The position numbers and the translations under genes were made by a program. Shown in pieces: positions 7,583 to 28,409 of a DNA stretch of 32,084 nt. The notes below the pieces were generated by a model. It was not told where the DNA came from. It did not search any database and was given only the letters and a program-made list of their open reading frames with translations. Positions within the stretch are counted from its first letter, which is position 1, and each line of letters starts with the position of its first letter. Source of the stretch: Actinomycetes bacterium (GTDB lineage Bacteria; Actinomycetota; CADDZG01; JAHWKV01); assembly GCA_029263075.1 (NCBI GenBank), contig JAJCYE010000067.1, forward strand, positions 1-32,084, read 5' to 3'.

Positions 7583-7759
7583 CCGTGGACCGCCTGCCTG
7601 CTCGGCCGCAGGGGGGCTAGCCCCCCATCACCTTGGAGGCTAGCCGGGTAGCTACCCTACCCGGCGGGTGAAAGTATCGAGTATGCGAGTTGACCGCTCG
7701 CGCCGATCCACAGCCAAGGGAACGCTGATCCTCGGGTCGACGCAATGTCAATCTGAGGC

Positions 7760-7841
7760 GTTGACGGGTAGCATCTTGACGAAAAGGGAGGCGTCCCTAC
7801 GGGACGCCGGGGAGCCCTTTTCGTCTACGATGCTAGTCAAC
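7760..7841. repeat. 82-nt nested inverted repeat (long hairpin)
   Basis: Read outward from the centre: an 8-bp stem (7790-7797 with 7801-7808, 3-nt loop), an 11-bp stem (7778-7788 with 7815-7825), a 7-bp stem (7769-7775 with 7829-7835) and a 6-bp outer stem GTTGAC/GTCAAC (7760-7765 with 7836-7841), separated only by bulges of one to six bases. In total 32 pairs can form. Such a near-complete full-length inverted repeat could be a non-coding RNA hairpin, a protein-binding cruciform or a MITE/REP-like remnant; the sequence alone does not decide. Confidence 0.8.
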
Positions 7842-7856
7842 TGAACCGTCGGTTTA

Positions 7857-7942: not shown

Positions 7943-8629
7943 ATGCAAGAACATCCCGGCCCCCTCAAAGTCCTTATCGCCGAGGACCAGTACCTGCTTC
8001 GTGAGGGGACCCGGCGGCTACTGGAGGAAGAGGGCTTGGACGTTGTCGGAGTCGCGGTCGACTACGACACGGTGCTGTCGCAGACCCGCAAGCTACACCC
8101 CGATGTCGTTTTGATGGACATCCGGATGCCTCCGACGCACACCATGGAGGGCATAAGGGCCGCTCACGAGATCAAGACCGAGTTCCCAGAAGTAGGAGTT
8201 GTCGTCCTTAGTCAGCACGATGACGAAAGCTACGTCTGGGCACTCCTCAAGTCGGGAGTAGCGGGCTACGGCTACCTGCACAAAGTACGGGTCGGCGACG
8301 TGGCGCAGTTGGTCCGGGCCCTCCACGAGGTCGCTTCGGGCGGGTCGGTGCTCGACCCCCGCATAGTCGAACGCCTCCTTGCCCTCCGGTCCCGCAAACC
8401 CGGGTCGGCGCTCGGGCGGCTTACCGAGGCGGAGATGGATGTGTTGAGGCTGATGGCCGAAGGCAAAAACAACGCCCGGGTCTCCCAGGAACTCACGGTT
8501 TCGGTGGGCACGATTGAAAAACGCATCGCCGCCGTCTTCTCCAAATTGGGCCTATCGGAGGAGGCAGAGCTAAACCGTCGGGTTGCCGCCGTCCTGATCT
8601 TCCTCCGGGAGTCGGCCACCGTTCACTAG
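7943..8629 (+). CDS. NarL/FixJ-family two-component response regulator
   Basis: A 228-residue regulator with a receiver domain (about residues 8-130) and a LuxR-type DNA-binding domain (about 160-225). The receiver has the acidic pair E14-D15, phospho-acceptor D59 in VVLMDIRMPP, S90 in VVLSQ and the conserved K114 (YLHK). The C-terminal LTEAEMDVLRLMAEG through VGTIEKRIAAVFSKLGL is a typical LuxR helix-turn-helix. The loop after D59 is longer than in NarL (MPPTHTMEG), a form common in actinobacterial members. The gene is tail-to-tail with the histidine kinase gene (16 bp between them), which is the obvious partner. Targets are unknown; its own upstream repeats are candidates. Confidence 0.93.
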   Translation: MQEHPGPLKVLIAEDQYLLREGTRRLLEEEGLDVVGVAVDYDTVLSQTRKLHPDVVLMDIRMPPTHTMEGIRAAHEIKTEFPEVGVVVLSQHDDESYVWALLKSGVAGYGYLHKVRVGDVAQLVRALHEVASGGSVLDPRIVERLLALRSRKPGSALGRLTEAEMDVLRLMAEGKNNARVSQELTVSVGTIEKRIAAVFSKLGLSEEAELNRRVAAVLIFLRESATVH

Positions 8630-8645
8630 GCCTATTCGGGCCGCG

Positions 8646-10388
8646 TCACGAGTTGATCGGCCCGGGATCTTGCGCCGGATCCAGCGGAATCCGGGCGAGT
8701 ACGGTCACACCTTCGCCCGGGAAGCTCACGATCTTGGAGGATCCACCTACCGCGTTGATGCGGTCGGCCATGTTCTGTAACCCCGAACCCATGGTTTCAA
8801 GTGAAAGGTCGAACCCCGGACCGTCGTCGGAAACCTTCAACACCACCATTTCCGGCTCGTCCTCCAGTGTGACGTTCAGCTTTGCTTCCGGTGCGTGCTT
8901 TTGGGCGTTGGCCATCGCTTCCATAGCCACAAAGTAGAGCGTGCCCTCGATCTCGGGGCTGAACCTTCGTTCCTCGAGTCCGGGCGAGACCTTGAGTTTT
9001 ACCTCCATCGGCAAACGGCTGGCCGAGGTGCGGAGCGCAGCCGCCACCCCCTGGTCACCAAGGACGGTGGGGAAGATGCCGCGGCCCAGGTCCTGGAGGG
9101 CAAATGCCGCCTCCTCGGCCTCGGCGGCCAGGTGCTCCAGCAGAAGCGGGTTCGGAGGATCTTCGGCAGCCGCCAGTTGTTTGATCTTGACCGCCAGGAC
9201 CACGAGTTGCTGCTGCATCCCGTCGTGCAGGTCCCGCGCCACCCGCTGACGCTCCTCCTGTTGGGCCACCAGCAAACGCTTGGACGCCTCCTGGAGGCGC
9301 CGGGTTTTGCCCTGCAGTTCGCCGGTCATCTGCTGGAGCGCCTCCGCCAACCGGCCGATCTCGTTATCCCGGGGAGCGCTGAAGCTGGCCAGCAGATCGC
9401 CCCTGGCTATCCTGGTAGCCGTTCTGGACAGCCCCACCAGCGGCCGGACCAGGGTCCAAAACAGCAACCAGCCCATGACCAGCGCCGCCCCTACCAGCAC
9501 GAACGTCGACAGCAGACGCACCAGCCTGAGCCGCAGGGTCAGGTCTTCGACAGGGTCCGGCACCGCCACGCCTATCGCCGCCGTACCCAGGGGACTCCCG
9601 GGCCCGGCGATCCCCCGGTACATGACGAGCATGCGGTTCCCGCCCACCGTCACCGGCGTGGCCCGGGTCGGGAGTTCTTCGCGGTCCGGGTCCCAGCCCG
9701 GGATCTCCGACGGTCCGAGCCGCACAGTGCTGCCCACTACCTCGTTGTCGGCCACCAGAATGATCTCGCCCTCGTCCCCAAGGGTCTTTCGAAGGTCGTA
9801 GGCCGTGCCGTCCGCGAAGTCCATCCCGCCGAGTAGAACTCCCTGATCCAGCCCGATGGGCGTGGCGACAACCCGCTCGAATTTCCCCGTGCCAAGCCGA
9901 ACCAGTCGAGACGGGGATCCCGAGGCCGCGTCCGCGATGACTTCGGTGCCTTGCAGAACCCGGCCGTCACCGGCGATCCAGGTACCTTCGCCATCGAACA
10001 GGCCCAGCCGGTCGATGCTGAGGGTATCCGAGGTCTGGCTGGTCCAACTCACCAGTTCGGGGTACGAGGAGTTCTCCAGCACCCCACCGACATTGAGTTG
10101 CTCCGACAGGTAGCGCAACACCAACGACAGTGCCCGCTCCCCCTCCTCGTAGGCACCGACCGCCACGCTCAACCGCCGGCTCGTTAGGAGGTCGGCCTCC
10201 TTGGTCAGCTCGGACTTGGTCATCCGCTCTTCCAGCAAGCTGGTACCCGCGGCGGAGATCAGGATCACCGATACCAGGGCGACGAGAAACTCGACCAGAA
10301 TCGATGGGCGGGTCCGGGCCCGGGCCCGCCGGGAGGCTGCCTCGGTCTCTGACTCCCCTGCCCGGGGGCGGCGCACTACAACCGCCAC
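8646..10388 (-). CDS. membrane sensor histidine kinase (HisKA_3 type, HAMP)
   Basis: A 580-residue kinase. An Arg-rich cytoplasmic N-terminus (1-29) leads into TM1 (about 31-52), a roughly 235-residue extracytoplasmic sensor region that may be a Cache-type fold (inference from size and position), TM2 (about 291-314), a HAMP linker (315-367), and a dimerisation helix with phospho-acceptor H388 in ARDLHDGMQQQLV, typical of NarX/DesK-like kinases. The ATPase domain shows the N box (AMEAMANAQKHA, 488-499), DDGPGFD (521-527) and GSGLQNMADRI. The gene begins 9 bp after the solute-binding lipoprotein gene and is surely cotranscribed with it; the NarL-type regulator converges on its 3' end. The lipoprotein may present a ligand to its sensor domain. 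Confidence 0.93.
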   Translation of the reverse strand: MAVVVRRPRAGESETEAASRRARARTRPSILVEFLVALVSVILISAAGTSLLEERMTKSELTKEADLLTSRRLSVAVGAYEEGERALSLVLRYLSEQLNVGGVLENSSYPELVSWTSQTSDTLSIDRLGLFDGEGTWIAGDGRVLQGTEVIADAASGSPSRLVRLGTGKFERVVATPIGLDQGVLLGGMDFADGTAYDLRKTLGDEGEIILVADNEVVGSTVRLGPSEIPGWDPDREELPTRATPVTVGGNRMLVMYRGIAGPGSPLGTAAIGVAVPDPVEDLTLRLRLVRLLSTFVLVGAALVMGWLLFWTLVRPLVGLSRTATRIARGDLLASFSAPRDNEIGRLAEALQQMTGELQGKTRRLQEASKRLLVAQQEERQRVARDLHDGMQQQLVVLAVKIKQLAAAEDPPNPLLLEHLAAEAEEAAFALQDLGRGIFPTVLGDQGVAAALRTSASRLPMEVKLKVSPGLEERRFSPEIEGTLYFVAMEAMANAQKHAPEAKLNVTLEDEPEMVVLKVSDDGPGFDLSLETMGSGLQNMADRINAVGGSSKIVSFPGEGVTVLARIPLDPAQDPGPINS

Positions 10389-10397
10389 GACTACCAG

Positions 10398-11675
10398 CTA
10401 TCCAATCGGGTTCGTCGGCGCGCGCTCCGCCTTTTCCTGGGCGGCCTTGAGGGCAGTCGCCGGATCTGCGCCGTTTCTCATGACATCGCTGAATGCCGAG
10501 TCCCAGGCGCTCGCCGCTTCGGGGAAAGCTTCGATCAGCAGCGGGTAAGCCGTTTCCAACTGCTGGAGGACCACATCCAGAACGGGGTCGTCGAAGAACG
10601 GGTCCAGGTAGACCCGCGGCCGGACCGGAAGGCGTCGCTCCTCTTTGGCCAGACGCAGTGCATGCCGGTCGGCCGTGATGGTTCTCATCAACTCGAAAGC
10701 CAGTTCCCGGTTTTGGGACCCCTTGGGAACAAAAAGGCTGCTCCCCCCGGTTACCGACCCTTGGGTTTGGCCGGTTGTTCCACCGGGCATCAGGGCCGCA
10801 CCGTAACTGGTGCCCAGCGTCTCCCGATCCAGCTTCGCCAGGTCCCACGAACCGGAGGCGTGAGTCACGGAGTTGCCCGAGCGGAATTGCGCCAGGGAGT
10901 CCGCCGATGAGTTGGCGCCCACCGGGGCGAACGCGTAGCCCTGCTGGATCATGCGGGACAGAAAGGACAGCGTTTCCACCACCTCCGGCGAGTCGAGCGT
11001 GAATTCCGGCTTGCCGTCAACTACCGTGACCAACTCGCCGCCGTTGGCCTTTACCCAGCCGTAGGCCGCCCAATAACTGTTGGCCAGCGCAATGACCTTC
11101 TGTGTTCCACCCGCGGCTTTGATGGCGGCGCCGTAACCCTCCAAGTCGGCGAAGGTTGTCGTTTCCGAGGGCTCGGCCAGATTGGCATCATCAAAACTTT
11201 CCGGGCGATAGAACAACACCAGTGCGTTGATGTCCAGGGGAACTCCGTACAGATGATCCCCCCACCGGACATCTGCCACCGCTCCGGGGAAGAACTCTGC
11301 GGGCTGCATCCCGGCCCGCTCCCACAGATCTTCCACCGGTTCGGCCAATCCTTGGGCGCCCGCGGCATACGCGTGCCACTGAACCAGATCCGCCGGATTG
11401 CCGGCGACCACCTGGCTGCGCACCGCCTCCGCCATGTTCCGGATGGGTAGCCGCTCAACATCGACCCGGACGTTGTTGTGGGTCTCCTCAAACTCTTTGA
11501 CTGCCGCCAGGAACGCCGGTCGACTGCCCCAGTCGTCGGTCATCAGCACCTTGAGGCGGGTGGGCGGTGGCGGCACTTCGACCGCCGGTCCCAGCGAACA
11601 GCCCGCGGCCAGCAGGCAAACGGCCAACACGTGAGCAATTCGGGACGCGGGTCCCCCAACAGAACTCTTTGTCAT
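10398..11675 (-). CDS. extracellular solute-binding lipoprotein (ABC sugar-binding, family 1 type)
   Basis: A 425-residue secreted lipoprotein: hydrophobic signal peptide and lipobox LAAGC with lipidated C26, then a mature domain like maltose/sugar-binding proteins (F..A...FE..H.NV.V......; AGNPADLVQWHAYAAGAQG; GVPLDINALVLFYRPESFD; FRSGNSVTHASGSWDL; GGSSLFVPKGSQNRELAFELMR). Such proteins normally feed an ABC importer, but no permease or ATPase gene is near; instead a histidine kinase gene follows after 9 bp. A sensing role, as in the XylFII-LytS type of system, is therefore more likely than transport. The ligand is probably a sugar or other small polar molecule, but it cannot be named. GGGGA lies 4 nt before the ATG. 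Confidence 0.88.
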   Translation of the reverse strand: MTKSSVGGPASRIAHVLAVCLLAAGCSLGPAVEVPPPPTRLKVLMTDDWGSRPAFLAAVKEFEETHNNVRVDVERLPIRNMAEAVRSQVVAGNPADLVQWHAYAAGAQGLAEPVEDLWERAGMQPAEFFPGAVADVRWGDHLYGVPLDINALVLFYRPESFDDANLAEPSETTTFADLEGYGAAIKAAGGTQKVIALANSYWAAYGWVKANGGELVTVVDGKPEFTLDSPEVVETLSFLSRMIQQGYAFAPVGANSSADSLAQFRSGNSVTHASGSWDLAKLDRETLGTSYGAALMPGGTTGQTQGSVTGGSSLFVPKGSQNRELAFELMRTITADRHALRLAKEERRLPVRPRVYLDPFFDDPVLDVVLQQLETAYPLLIEAFPEAASAWDSAFSDVMRNGADPATALKAAQEKAERAPTNPIG

Positions 11676-24703: not shown

Positions 24704-25570
24704 TCAACTCTTAATCTCGTGCCCACCAAACTCCCGGCGGAGAGCCGCGACGACCTTCATGGCGAACGACTCCTCCTGCTGGGAAACAAAACGGGCGAAC
24801 AGCGCGGCTGAGATGGCCGGTGCCGCAACCCCGGTGTTAACCGCCTCCAGAACGGTCCAACGGCCTTCTCCCGAGTCGGCGGCAAATCCCTTCAACTCGT
24901 CCAGGTCCGGATCCCGCTCGAACGCCGTTGCCGCCAGGTCGAGCAACCACGACCGCACTACCGAACCCTGCTTCCATACGCTGGCCACCTGAGCCAGATC
25001 CAGGTCGAACTCCTTTGACGCCCTCATGATTTCAAAGCCTTCACCGAAGCTCTGCATCATCCCGTACTCAATGCCGTTGTGGACCATCTTCACGAAGTGG
25101 CCGGCCCCCGGAGGACCCACCAGGGCGTAGCCGTTGGGCGGCGCCAGGGTCTTGGCCAGTGGCTCGATGATGGCAAAGGTGTCCGGTTGGGCGCCGACCA
25201 TCAGCGAGTACCCCTCGGTCAGTCCCCAAATGCCGCCTGAGGTACCTGCGTCGGCCCAACGGATGCCCTTCTCCCCCACCTCGGAGGCCCGGCGGATGGT
25301 GTCGCGGAAGTTGGAGTTGCCTCCGTCGATAAGCACGTCCCCCGGTCCCAGCAGCTTGCACATCTCATCGATGTTGCTCTGGGTGACGTCGCCCGAAGGC
25401 ACCATCAGCCAGACGACCCGGGGCGACGGAAGCTGGCTCACCAGATCCGCCAGATCTTTGGCCTGCTCGGTGTTGGAACGGGAGTAGCCGATCACCTCAT
25501 GGCCGTCGCGCTCCAGGCGCTCTTTCATGTTGCCGCCCATCCGGCCCAGACCTACCAGTCCGATCTTCAT
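24704..25570 (-). CDS. gnd: 6-phosphogluconate dehydrogenase (decarboxylating), short form
   Basis: Oxidises 6-phosphogluconate to ribulose 5-phosphate and CO2 (oxidative pentose phosphate pathway). At 288 residues it belongs to the short bacterial type, well below the roughly 470 residues of E. coli Gnd. The Rossmann motif GLVGLGRMGGNM starts at residue 4; further motifs are LIDGGNSNFRDT, the substrate loop DAGTSGGIWG, and the catalytic lysine in GHFVKMVHNGIEYGMMQ. Its start overlaps the end of the transaldolase/isomerase fusion gene by 4 nt, so the two are made together. The third residue of the nucleotide loop does not allow a firm choice between NAD and NADP. Confidence 0.93.
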   Translation of the reverse strand: MKIGLVGLGRMGGNMKERLERDGHEVIGYSRSNTEQAKDLADLVSQLPSPRVVWLMVPSGDVTQSNIDEMCKLLGPGDVLIDGGNSNFRDTIRRASEVGEKGIRWADAGTSGGIWGLTEGYSLMVGAQPDTFAIIEPLAKTLAPPNGYALVGPPGAGHFVKMVHNGIEYGMMQSFGEGFEIMRASKEFDLDLAQVASVWKQGSVVRSWLLDLAATAFERDPDLDELKGFAADSGEGRWTVLEAVNTGVAAPAISAALFARFVSQQEESFAMKVVAALRREFGGHEIKS

Positions 25571-28203
25571 GACATCACCTCTCGTAGTTGTTCCAGAGTG
25601 ACCCTGGCCACGCGTCGACCGGCCTGCTGGAGACTGCGGTAGTCCCCCAGGGCCTGCGCTTTGATCAGGTCACCGAATGAGTACGTTGCGTGCGGAATGG
25701 CCAGGTCCTCGCCCATGTCGGTGTCGACAACCTGGATGAACACCCCCGAGTCCGTACCCCCTTTGTGAAGCTGCCCGGTCGAGTGCAGGTAGCGGGGACC
25801 GAATCCCACCGTCGTCGCCACCTTGTGGGTATCGCGGAGTTGCAGGCGGGCCTGCTGAAGCGCCTGTTCGGTTTCGTCGGTGCGGTCCAGGTAAGCGAGG
25901 ATCGCCACGTAGTCACCCGGTTTGATGGACTCCAGGAGTGGCCCCAGGTCATCCCGGCCCGGATCTTCAAAACCGCCGGAGTCCAGGATCACCTTGGTGG
26001 CCTCTTTGGCCTGCGCTACGTTGGGCTGGTCGAACGGGTTGATCCCCAAGAGGTGCCCGGCGACCGCAATCGCGAACTCCCAACGGAAGAACTCCCCGCC
26101 CAGGTCGGACGGGCGGTTGTAGTCGATTTTCACCACCGGGTGGCCGGCCGCGGCAAGTGCGTCCAGACCGGGCACGTCGCCCAGCGACACGAACAAACGG
26201 TCGGAACCGTAACTTTCCGGCGGCCCAAGGTCCTCCCCGACCACCGGGAGAATCCCCTTGCCTTCCTTCCCGGTGGACTCGGCGATAAGCTGCTCCACCC
26301 AATCGCCCAGGCTGGCGACCTCATCGGGCAGCACGATGGTGATTTTGTCCCGTCCCAGGCCGGCGGCTATACCTTGGGCGATACCCAACCAGGCCCCCGG
26401 GTTCTGATCCACCGGCACGCAGTAGTGAGAGGCACATGCCATCTCCTCGGCGTCGTCCAGGATCGCGTTCAGGTCCACCCCGGCCAGCGCCGCGGGCACC
26501 AGCCCGAACAGCGACAGCGCCGAGTACCGGCCCCCGATGTCCGCCGGGTTGAGAAAGACCTTGCGGAACCCCATAAGGCCCGCGAGGCGAGCCAGACGAG
26601 TCCCTGGATCGGTGATGGCGATGAACTGCTGCGGGTTGTTGACCAGTTCGAAGAAGTAACCGAAGTGCGAGATCGACTCCGTGGTGGTCCCGGACTTGGA
26701 GGCCACGATGAACAATGTCTTGTCGAGCGGCAAACTGTCGCGCAACCGGGCGATGGTGCGAGGGTGGGTGGAGTCCAGAACCAGCAGCTTCAGCCCCTCT
26801 TCGCTGGAGAACGATTTGCGGAACACCTCCGAGACCAACGAAGAACCGCCCATCCCCAGGACCACCGCATGGGTAAACCCGTCGGCCTTGGCGGTTTTGG
26901 TCAACTCGGTTAGTTCGGGAACCCGGTCCATCATGGCGTCGGCGACAGTGAGCCAGCCCAGCCGATCGGTGATCTCGGTCGGGTCCTGCTTCCAGACGGT
27001 GTGGTCCTTGCGCCAGATGCGGGCGACAACGTCCGATCCGGCGACCTCGGCGGCCGAGGCTTCAACCGCCGCGGTCAACGAGGGGTCCAAATCGGCTTCC
27101 CAACGAACCCGGCCGGCGCACACCCGCTCGACCTTCTCTTGAAGAGTCTTGAGCAGGGACGCGAAGTCCTTTTCGAATGCCGCGATCCCATCGCCCTCGA
27201 GTTTGGCGGCGACCTCCTCCAGGTTGATCCCGTTGTCGGCCAGACCGGTCAAGACCGAAATCGCCTCGCCGACCCCGGCGGAGACCGAGTCCTGTTTGGT
27301 GGCGCCGTGGTCCAAGAACGCCTCCATCGTCTGTTGGGGCATGGTGTTCACGGTGTCGGGACCTATCAGCTCTTCGATGTAGAGGGTGTCGGGGTAGGCC
27401 GGGTTCTTGGTCCCGGTAGATGCCCAGAGCGGCCGCTGCACATTGGCGCCGGCTGCAGCGAGCTTTTCCCAACGGGGGCCGGAGAAGATGTGCTGGAAGC
27501 GCTGGTAGGCCATTTTGGCGTTGGCAACCGCAACCCTGCCCCGCAGCGGGGAGTTGTCCGGCAGGAGAGCATCTACTGCAGAGTCGACCCGGGAAACAAA
27601 AAACGAGGCAACGGAGTTGATTCCGTCAATCGGCAGGCCGGCATCCTTGCGCAACTCCAGCCCGCTGACGTAAGCCTCGGCAACTTTCTCGTAGCTCCTG
27701 ACCGAGAACAACAGGGTGATGTTCACATTGACCCCGGCGGCGGTCAACTCCTCCACCGCGTGCGCTCCCTCGGCGGTACCGGGCACCTTGATCATCACAT
27801 TGGGCCGGTCGATCTGGGCCCACAATTGTTTGGCCTTGGCGACGCTTCCTGCGGCGTCGTGGGCCAGGGACGACTCCAGTTCAAAGGAGACGAAGCCGTC
27901 CTTGCCCCCGGTCTTTTGGTACACGGGAGCAAACACTGTTGCCGCGTCCTGGATGTCTTTGAGAGCAAGTTCGTAAAAGACATCTACCGCGTCGCGCTCT
28001 TCCAGAGAGATCTGGGCGATTGCCTCGTCGTAGTCGGACGATCCGCCGATGGCCTTTTTGAAGATGCTGGGATTGGAAGTTACGCCGGTGATTTCCCACT
28101 CGTCGATCATTCTTGCCAACTCGCCGCCGGTGATCAGGCCCCGCCGGAGAAAGTCCAGCCAGATAGCCGTTCCGGCCTGGTGTAGCTGTTGCAGTCGGTT
28201 CAT
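25567..28203 (-). CDS. tal-pgi: bifunctional transaldolase / glucose-6-phosphate isomerase
   Basis: An 878-residue fusion. Residues 1 to about 370 are transaldolase: TGVTSNPSIFKKAI, the Schiff-base lysine K139 in NVMIKVPGT, VNVNITLLFS and RPLWASTGTKNPAYPDTLY. After a linker, about 390-878 resemble glucose-6-phosphate isomerase: VVLGMGGSSLVSEV, VASKSGTTTES, FGLVPAALAGVD, and the ESTGKEGKGILPV stretch. Each half joins glycolysis to the non-oxidative pentose phosphate pathway, and gnd follows with a 4-nt overlap. Such fusions are known in actinobacteria and a few other phyla. ATG at 28201-28203 has GGAGG 5 nt upstream. Confidence 0.94.
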   Translation of the reverse strand: MNRLQQLHQAGTAIWLDFLRRGLITGGELARMIDEWEITGVTSNPSIFKKAIGGSSDYDEAIAQISLEERDAVDVFYELALKDIQDAATVFAPVYQKTGGKDGFVSFELESSLAHDAAGSVAKAKQLWAQIDRPNVMIKVPGTAEGAHAVEELTAAGVNVNITLLFSVRSYEKVAEAYVSGLELRKDAGLPIDGINSVASFFVSRVDSAVDALLPDNSPLRGRVAVANAKMAYQRFQHIFSGPRWEKLAAAGANVQRPLWASTGTKNPAYPDTLYIEELIGPDTVNTMPQQTMEAFLDHGATKQDSVSAGVGEAISVLTGLADNGINLEEVAAKLEGDGIAAFEKDFASLLKTLQEKVERVCAGRVRWEADLDPSLTAAVEASAAEVAGSDVVARIWRKDHTVWKQDPTEITDRLGWLTVADAMMDRVPELTELTKTAKADGFTHAVVLGMGGSSLVSEVFRKSFSSEEGLKLLVLDSTHPRTIARLRDSLPLDKTLFIVASKSGTTTESISHFGYFFELVNNPQQFIAITDPGTRLARLAGLMGFRKVFLNPADIGGRYSALSLFGLVPAALAGVDLNAILDDAEEMACASHYCVPVDQNPGAWLGIAQGIAAGLGRDKITIVLPDEVASLGDWVEQLIAESTGKEGKGILPVVGEDLGPPESYGSDRLFVSLGDVPGLDALAAAGHPVVKIDYNRPSDLGGEFFRWEFAIAVAGHLLGINPFDQPNVAQAKEATKVILDSGGFEDPGRDDLGPLLESIKPGDYVAILAYLDRTDETEQALQQARLQLRDTHKVATTVGFGPRYLHSTGQLHKGGTDSGVFIQVVDTDMGEDLAIPHATYSFGDLIKAQALGDYRSLQQAGRRVARVTLEQLREVMS

Positions 28204-28409
28204 CCCCACCTCCGAAAAAGCTGGCGGCAGGCGTTCGAAAAGGCGGCCTGGACCAGCGTTGGTTGCCTTACCCCGTTAACGGCCGGTGTTGCGCAGGCCT
28301 GGGACCGGCTCTCGCTTCTGACGGGGGTGACTCTTCCCAAGCTTAGTGCCACATTCGCCCACCGGCATGTGGCTGGAACATGAACGTCGTCCCTGGGACA
28401 CTGTTACCC
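28204..28409. other. divergent intergenic region, no gene recognised
   Basis: About 200 bp between the transaldolase/isomerase fusion and the O-methyltransferase gene. It should hold both promoters, but no convincing -35/-10 pair was found on either strand and no remnant of transketolase, the usual upstream neighbour, is seen in any frame. Confidence 0.4.

Follow-up and report, generated by a model that had tools for sequence, protein, structure and literature searches.

A solute-binding lipoprotein, a DesK/NarX-type kinase and a NarL-type regulator as a probable three-component sensor in Actinomycetota

The closest described counterparts of the locus studied here are sensors in which a solute-binding protein (SBP) reports to a kinase. 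In Ruminiclostridium cellulolyticum, CuaD–CuaS–CuaR is a proven design consisting of a family-1 lipoprotein SBP, a kinase and a regulator, and it is the SBP, not the sugar, that the ectodomain of CuaS was shown to bind (PMC10384115). XylFII–LytS likewise has an SBP reporting to a histidine kinase and gives a precedent for an SBP:kinase heterotetramer (PMC9769921, PMC10384115), while GlnH–GlnX–PknG of Corynebacterium and mycobacteria is an actinobacterial case of an SBP used for transmembrane signaling (PMC9769921). One SBP does both jobs, transport and sensing, in the systems for chitin in Vibrio and citrate in Bordetella (PMC10384115). Several of the known SBP–kinase sensors control transporter genes for the same solute, often encoded nearby.

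We analyzed a 32 kb contig (32,084 nucleotides, the whole of which we call the window) from a 2.4-Mb actinobacterial genome, where an SBP gene, a kinase gene and a regulator gene form a module:

7943..8629, + strand: NarL/LuxR-type response regulator (REC and GerE HTH), 228 aa; Pfam Response_reg, GerE
8646..10388, - strand: DesK/NarX-type sensor histidine kinase, 580 aa; Pfam HAMP, HisKA_3, HATPase_c
9489..10304, - strand: kinase sensor region with flanking transmembrane (TM) helices, probably dCACHE-like; weak dCache_1, dCache_3 and CHASE4 matches in relatives
10398..11675, - strand: family-1 type solute-binding lipoprotein, 425 aa; Pfam SBP_bac_8/SBP_bac_1, lipobox

The SBP and kinase genes share a strand, with the kinase second after a 9-bp spacer, and the kinase and regulator genes converge with 16 bp between their 3' ends. 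Coordinates and Pfam domains thereby confirmed the gene positions, order, 9-bp spacing and convergent regulator described in an earlier note on this DNA. An extracytoplasmic SBP is encoded with a kinase and a regulator as a conserved unit, the arrangement of a three-component system. The neighbors are ordinary actinobacterial housekeeping genes: yebC, pdxT and pdxS on one side and DUF3048, LemA, GT4 glycosyltransferase and PIM acyltransferase genes on the other. No transporter gene was found among the window ORFs scanned, flanking genes included. Elsewhere in the window, we observed a transaldolase–phosphoglucose isomerase fusion (25570–28209, - strand) adjoining a 6-phosphogluconate dehydrogenase gene. 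On the sequence evidence, we give a probability of roughly 80% to the SBP, kinase and regulator forming one dedicated three-component sensory system.

The SBP matched the Pfam families SBP_bac_8 (1.4e-34) and SBP_bac_1 (3.5e-30) and carries an N-terminal lipobox (..CLLAAGC..) with its cysteine at residue 26; a lipobox was present in the SBPs of all 26 relatives examined. The closest solved structures are sugar- and oligosaccharide-binding proteins (Lin1841 and others), and the fold of the SBP is well established from sequence alone. In maltose-binding protein (MBP), we take W62, E111 and W230 to line the pocket, and the positions aligned to them, W100, N150 and W277, are conserved in 13, 15 and 15 of 15 relatives, respectively. 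This pattern is consistent with a working sugar-type pocket, although the residues do not give the identity of the ligand. In a tree with 21 comparison SBPs, the module SBPs formed one clade (support 0.999), and the same query detected a MalF-like permease in the flanking sequence retrieved for 17 of the 21 comparison SBPs and for none of the 26 module loci.

In the kinase, a first TM helix, a large extracytoplasmic domain (about residues 55–280) and a second TM helix, with the helices called from hydrophobic stretches and not by a TM predictor, are followed by HAMP (E 3e-10), HisKA_3 (1.1e-7) and HATPase_c (3.1e-8). H388, N494 and the DDGxGF motif are invariant across five relatives, and the catalytic residues are intact; the closest solved structures are DesK and VraS. 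The regulator combines Response_reg (E 2.5e-20) with GerE (1.6e-9), and its phospho-acceptor D59, K114 and acidic pocket are conserved in 15 relatives. The pairing of HisKA_3 and HATPase with REC–GerE is that of a DesK/NarX kinase and a NarL-type regulator.

No Pfam family matched the ectodomain of the window kinase itself. Among the sensor domains of 15 relatives, dCache_1 matched three (best E 8e-4), and dCache_3 and CHASE4 were also weak matches. An AlphaFold2 model of the sensor domain, built from two input sequences, reached a pLDDT of 39, so that its order of helices and strands is read from a low-confidence model. A Foldseek search with it returned mostly dCACHE domains, including that of LuxQ, all with E above 0.4, and because of the low pLDDT we set these matches aside as evidence. 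The extracytoplasmic domain is probably dCACHE-like.

Co-occurrence in relatives was the check that the earlier note had named for its reading of the genes as a probable three-component sensor. We searched Actinomycetota, many of whose genomes are drafts, with two profiles, one built from the kinase extracytoplasmic region alone and one from the SBP alone. Among 397 genomes of the phylum, the sensor profile gave 16 matches, 15 of them in genomes carrying all three genes; the sixteenth (G333, E 1.7e-6) was an unrelated protein with neither SBP nor regulator and was discarded. The SBP profile recovered these 15 genomes and no others at scores of at least 512 bits; the best remaining SBP reached 139 bits. 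A second class behaved likewise: of its 66 genomes, each profile selected the identical 22. Altogether, 26 genomes carry the module; they belong to 12 genera and three families (f1, f11 and f28). The co-occurrence was obligate: SBP, sensor domain and regulator came together without exception in the genomes searched, in support of the three-component reading. Relatedness among the genomes inflates the raw co-occurrence, and several contigs end near the module, limiting checks of the flanks.

Gene order was equally constant. The SBP gene precedes an adjacent kinase gene on one strand in all 26 loci, and a convergent regulator is present in all 25 complete loci, with the 3' ends of kinase and regulator ranging from 16 bp apart in the window to 219 bp overlapping. 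At 15 loci, the SBP stop and a start codon of the kinase gene lie in a 4-bp overlap, which points to translational coupling. The recurrence of the three-gene arrangement in 26 genomes of 12 genera is more than expected by chance. Other HisKA_3 kinases served as a control: where a regulator could be detected, five were co-directional and two convergent, with 13 of the 25 control loci unscored because the kinase lay on a strand that was not read; given this limited control, we do not claim the convergent layout to be unique. In most f11 and f28 loci, the 3' end of the regulator gene is overlapped on the opposite strand by the kinase ORF for 150–219 bp, very often exactly 165 bp. Such conserved tail-to-tail overlaps, seen at L035, L077–L086 and L133–L143, could be a source of antisense transcripts.

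Beyond the module, the conserved gene cluster proposed earlier dissolved: the flanks differ between families, and only the three genes keep company. They are pdxS and DUF3048 in the window genus; a SURF1-like gene or an amine-oxidase/DUF1365/CMAS cluster, plus a molybdopterin oxidoreductase, in f11; and glutamine synthetase and an Fe–S oxidoreductase in f28. The amine-oxidase/DUF1365/CMAS genes form a divergent lipid-modification cluster beside the regulator at four f11 loci (L079, L081, L082 and L083; domains were scanned in L081 and one L082 gene, and homologues in L079 and L083 were identified by BLAST) and are possible candidate targets of the regulator.

The trees indicated co-inheritance. 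Those of the SBP and the kinase, computed for 25 loci, agreed closely (r = 0.958), with 19 of 22 splits in common and no strongly supported conflict. Regulator trees agreed less sharply and conflicted strongly with the kinase tree at one point. Part of the agreement between SBP and kinase reflects shared ancestry; the flanking genes nonetheless differ.

The earlier note had also stated that no permease or ATPase accompanies the genes. This held for the window and, within the available flanks, for 24 of the 26 module loci, where ABC transporter genes are absent, but failed in two genomes of one genus, g131 (G172 and G407), in which an ATPase and two permeases (K-F-G) lie directly upstream of the SBP gene. 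The permeases resemble PotB and PotC and not maltose permeases. The transporter genes were annotated at three loci:

L086, 9223-12242 (-): PotABC-like ABC transporter K-F-G
L142, 8375-11114 (-): PotABC-like ABC transporter K-F-G
L164, 6252-9303 (-): PotABC-like ABC transporter K-F-G

At L164, the transporter stands without the module, and the fetched stretch contained no module-type SBP. In G249, also of g131, the transporter lies between the same glutamine synthetase and Fe–S genes and all three module genes are absent, whereas G259 of that genus has kept SBP, kinase and regulator and lacks the transporter. Within g131, where either state may be ancestral, presence and absence of the SBP follow those of the kinase and regulator. 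The best permease homologues scored at most 121 bits in module genomes outside g131, compared with 422–556 bits within it. In the window, the SBP is not encoded with the permeases and ATPase that mark a CUT1 import system, and the sole CUT1-type transporter found in that genome has its own SBP plus an alpha-amylase, an arrangement that recalls the Cua system, in which sensing and transport have separate SBPs.

The PotABC-like genes directly upstream of SBP and kinase in G172 and G407 make a transport role possible in some lineages, and the SBP may have begun as a transport protein or serve transport as well. Such a dual-role protein, for which single SBPs provide precedents (PMC10384115), would feed an ABC transporter, encoded elsewhere or, in g131, upstream, and also report its occupancy to the kinase. 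Against this stand the 24 loci lacking K-F-G genes, the module without a transporter in G259 and the gap in permease scores between g131 and the other module genomes, and we consider the dual role unlikely, though worth keeping in mind. The kinase itself could be the receptor: small molecules are common direct ligands of Cache domains, and the lipoprotein might then be an auxiliary or inhibitory subunit that has lost ligand binding. The sensor domain does evolve at a higher rate (mean column identity of 43%, compared with 57% in the SBP) and could in this way track a changing ligand. The better-conserved extracellular part is, however, the SBP, including the three residues aligned to the MBP pocket, which makes a kinase with its own ligand rather improbable.

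By chance, an ordinary orphan SBP gene may also have become the neighbor of a two-component pair with which it has no connection; transport is the normal role of family-1 SBPs, and the link between SBP and kinase is known here from sequence. Chance adjacency is hard to reconcile with the obligate co-occurrence, the same gene order across 26 genomes, 12 genera and three families with differing flanks, the 4-bp overlaps, the matching trees and the co-loss of the genes; this explanation is already disfavored, and we give it very little credence. Since scattered actinobacteria have retained the module as a unit that lacks a transporter, the SBP is most likely sensory, a member of an import-type protein family that would here report what is outside the cell.

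In a dedicated three-component system of this kind, the lipid-anchored SBP would bind an external solute where it is held on the outer side of the membrane. The solute is most likely a small carbohydrate or a compound resembling one. The SBP would dock on the ectodomain of the neighboring kinase, which is probably of the dCACHE type. Docking is predicted to alter the kinase through the second TM helix and HAMP, with the signal presumably passing inward; the DesK/NarX-type kinase would then phosphorylate the NarL-type regulator, which would change the transcription of its putative targets.

We also searched for regulatory elements. In families f11 and f28, the palindrome GTGGTGCTAGCACCAC lies 35–160 bp upstream of the start of regulator homology, and its core inverted repeat occurs upstream of the regulator at 16 of 25 loci, where shuffled sequences gave no more than 4. 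A total of six exact copies were found across 21 genomes, all at the module (L077, L078, L083, L086, L133 and L142); the palindrome is absent from the window. It may be a candidate autoregulatory operator of the regulator. One-mismatch copies elsewhere were no commoner than a reversed control pattern, and we therefore claim no regulon. Another short inverted repeat, found ahead of the SBP gene at 6 of 26 loci, was barely more frequent than in shuffles and was dropped. A GGAACCG box stands ahead of the regulator gene in f1 and f11 alike. The window contains one further element:

7681..7852, + strand: conserved structured intergenic element, about 170 nt, between the divergent pdxS and regulator genes

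It includes a hairpin (7760–7841) with a z-score of -6.55, has counterparts of about 80% identity in two sister genomes and shows four covarying pairs across the three sequences. It is single-copy in three genomes of the window genus, with only one marginal match elsewhere, and matched no Rfam family. The element is a putative promoter region or an RNA of no known family and a candidate part of the module at most.

In a literature search of incomplete coverage, we found no paper on this arrangement in actinobacteria or on the palindrome. We lean towards regarding the loci as an undescribed monophyletic actinobacterial group, in which a sugar-type SBP would act purely as the external receptor for a DesK/NarX kinase and a NarL regulator, with evidence of separation from a transporter in g131 and possibly a GTGGTGCTAGCACCAC operator. 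The SBP tracks the kinase in evolution, and in g131 the module and the transporter have been separated in both directions, making that genus a natural setting for asking how a transport receptor turns into a pure sensor. In a poorly studied part of the actinobacteria, the module further provides a NarL-type two-component system with a defined receptor that can be put to the test.

Among known proteins, the CUT1 sugar-transport SBPs (Lin1841, 5ysb; GacH, 3jzj) share the fold and sequence family of the module SBPs but serve ABC importers, whereas the module SBPs form their own kinase-linked clade. GlnH–GlnX–PknG uses an SBP_bac_3 amino-acid SBP, the 4HB sensor GlnX and a Ser/Thr kinase as output, in contrast to the histidine kinase and regulator of the module. 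XylFII perceives xylose and docks on a four-helix bundle, whereas the module pairs a family-1 SBP with a sensor of Cache-like appearance. CuaDSR shares the most with the module: a family-1 SBP lipoprotein dedicated to sensing, an adjacent two-TM HAMP kinase with a large extracytoplasmic part, modeled in CuaS as a long helix with two beta-sheet modules (PMC10384115), and a response regulator. The Cua kinase is of class I, however, and its YesN/AraC regulator controls the cuaABC-cbpA transport operon, whereas the module, in Actinomycetota, has a HisKA_3 kinase, a GerE/NarL regulator encoded convergently and usually no nearby transporter. We rejected orthology to CuaDSR on the classes of kinase and regulator, which place the module outside the Cua family though it would work alike; by analogy, CuaDSR is its closest working precedent.
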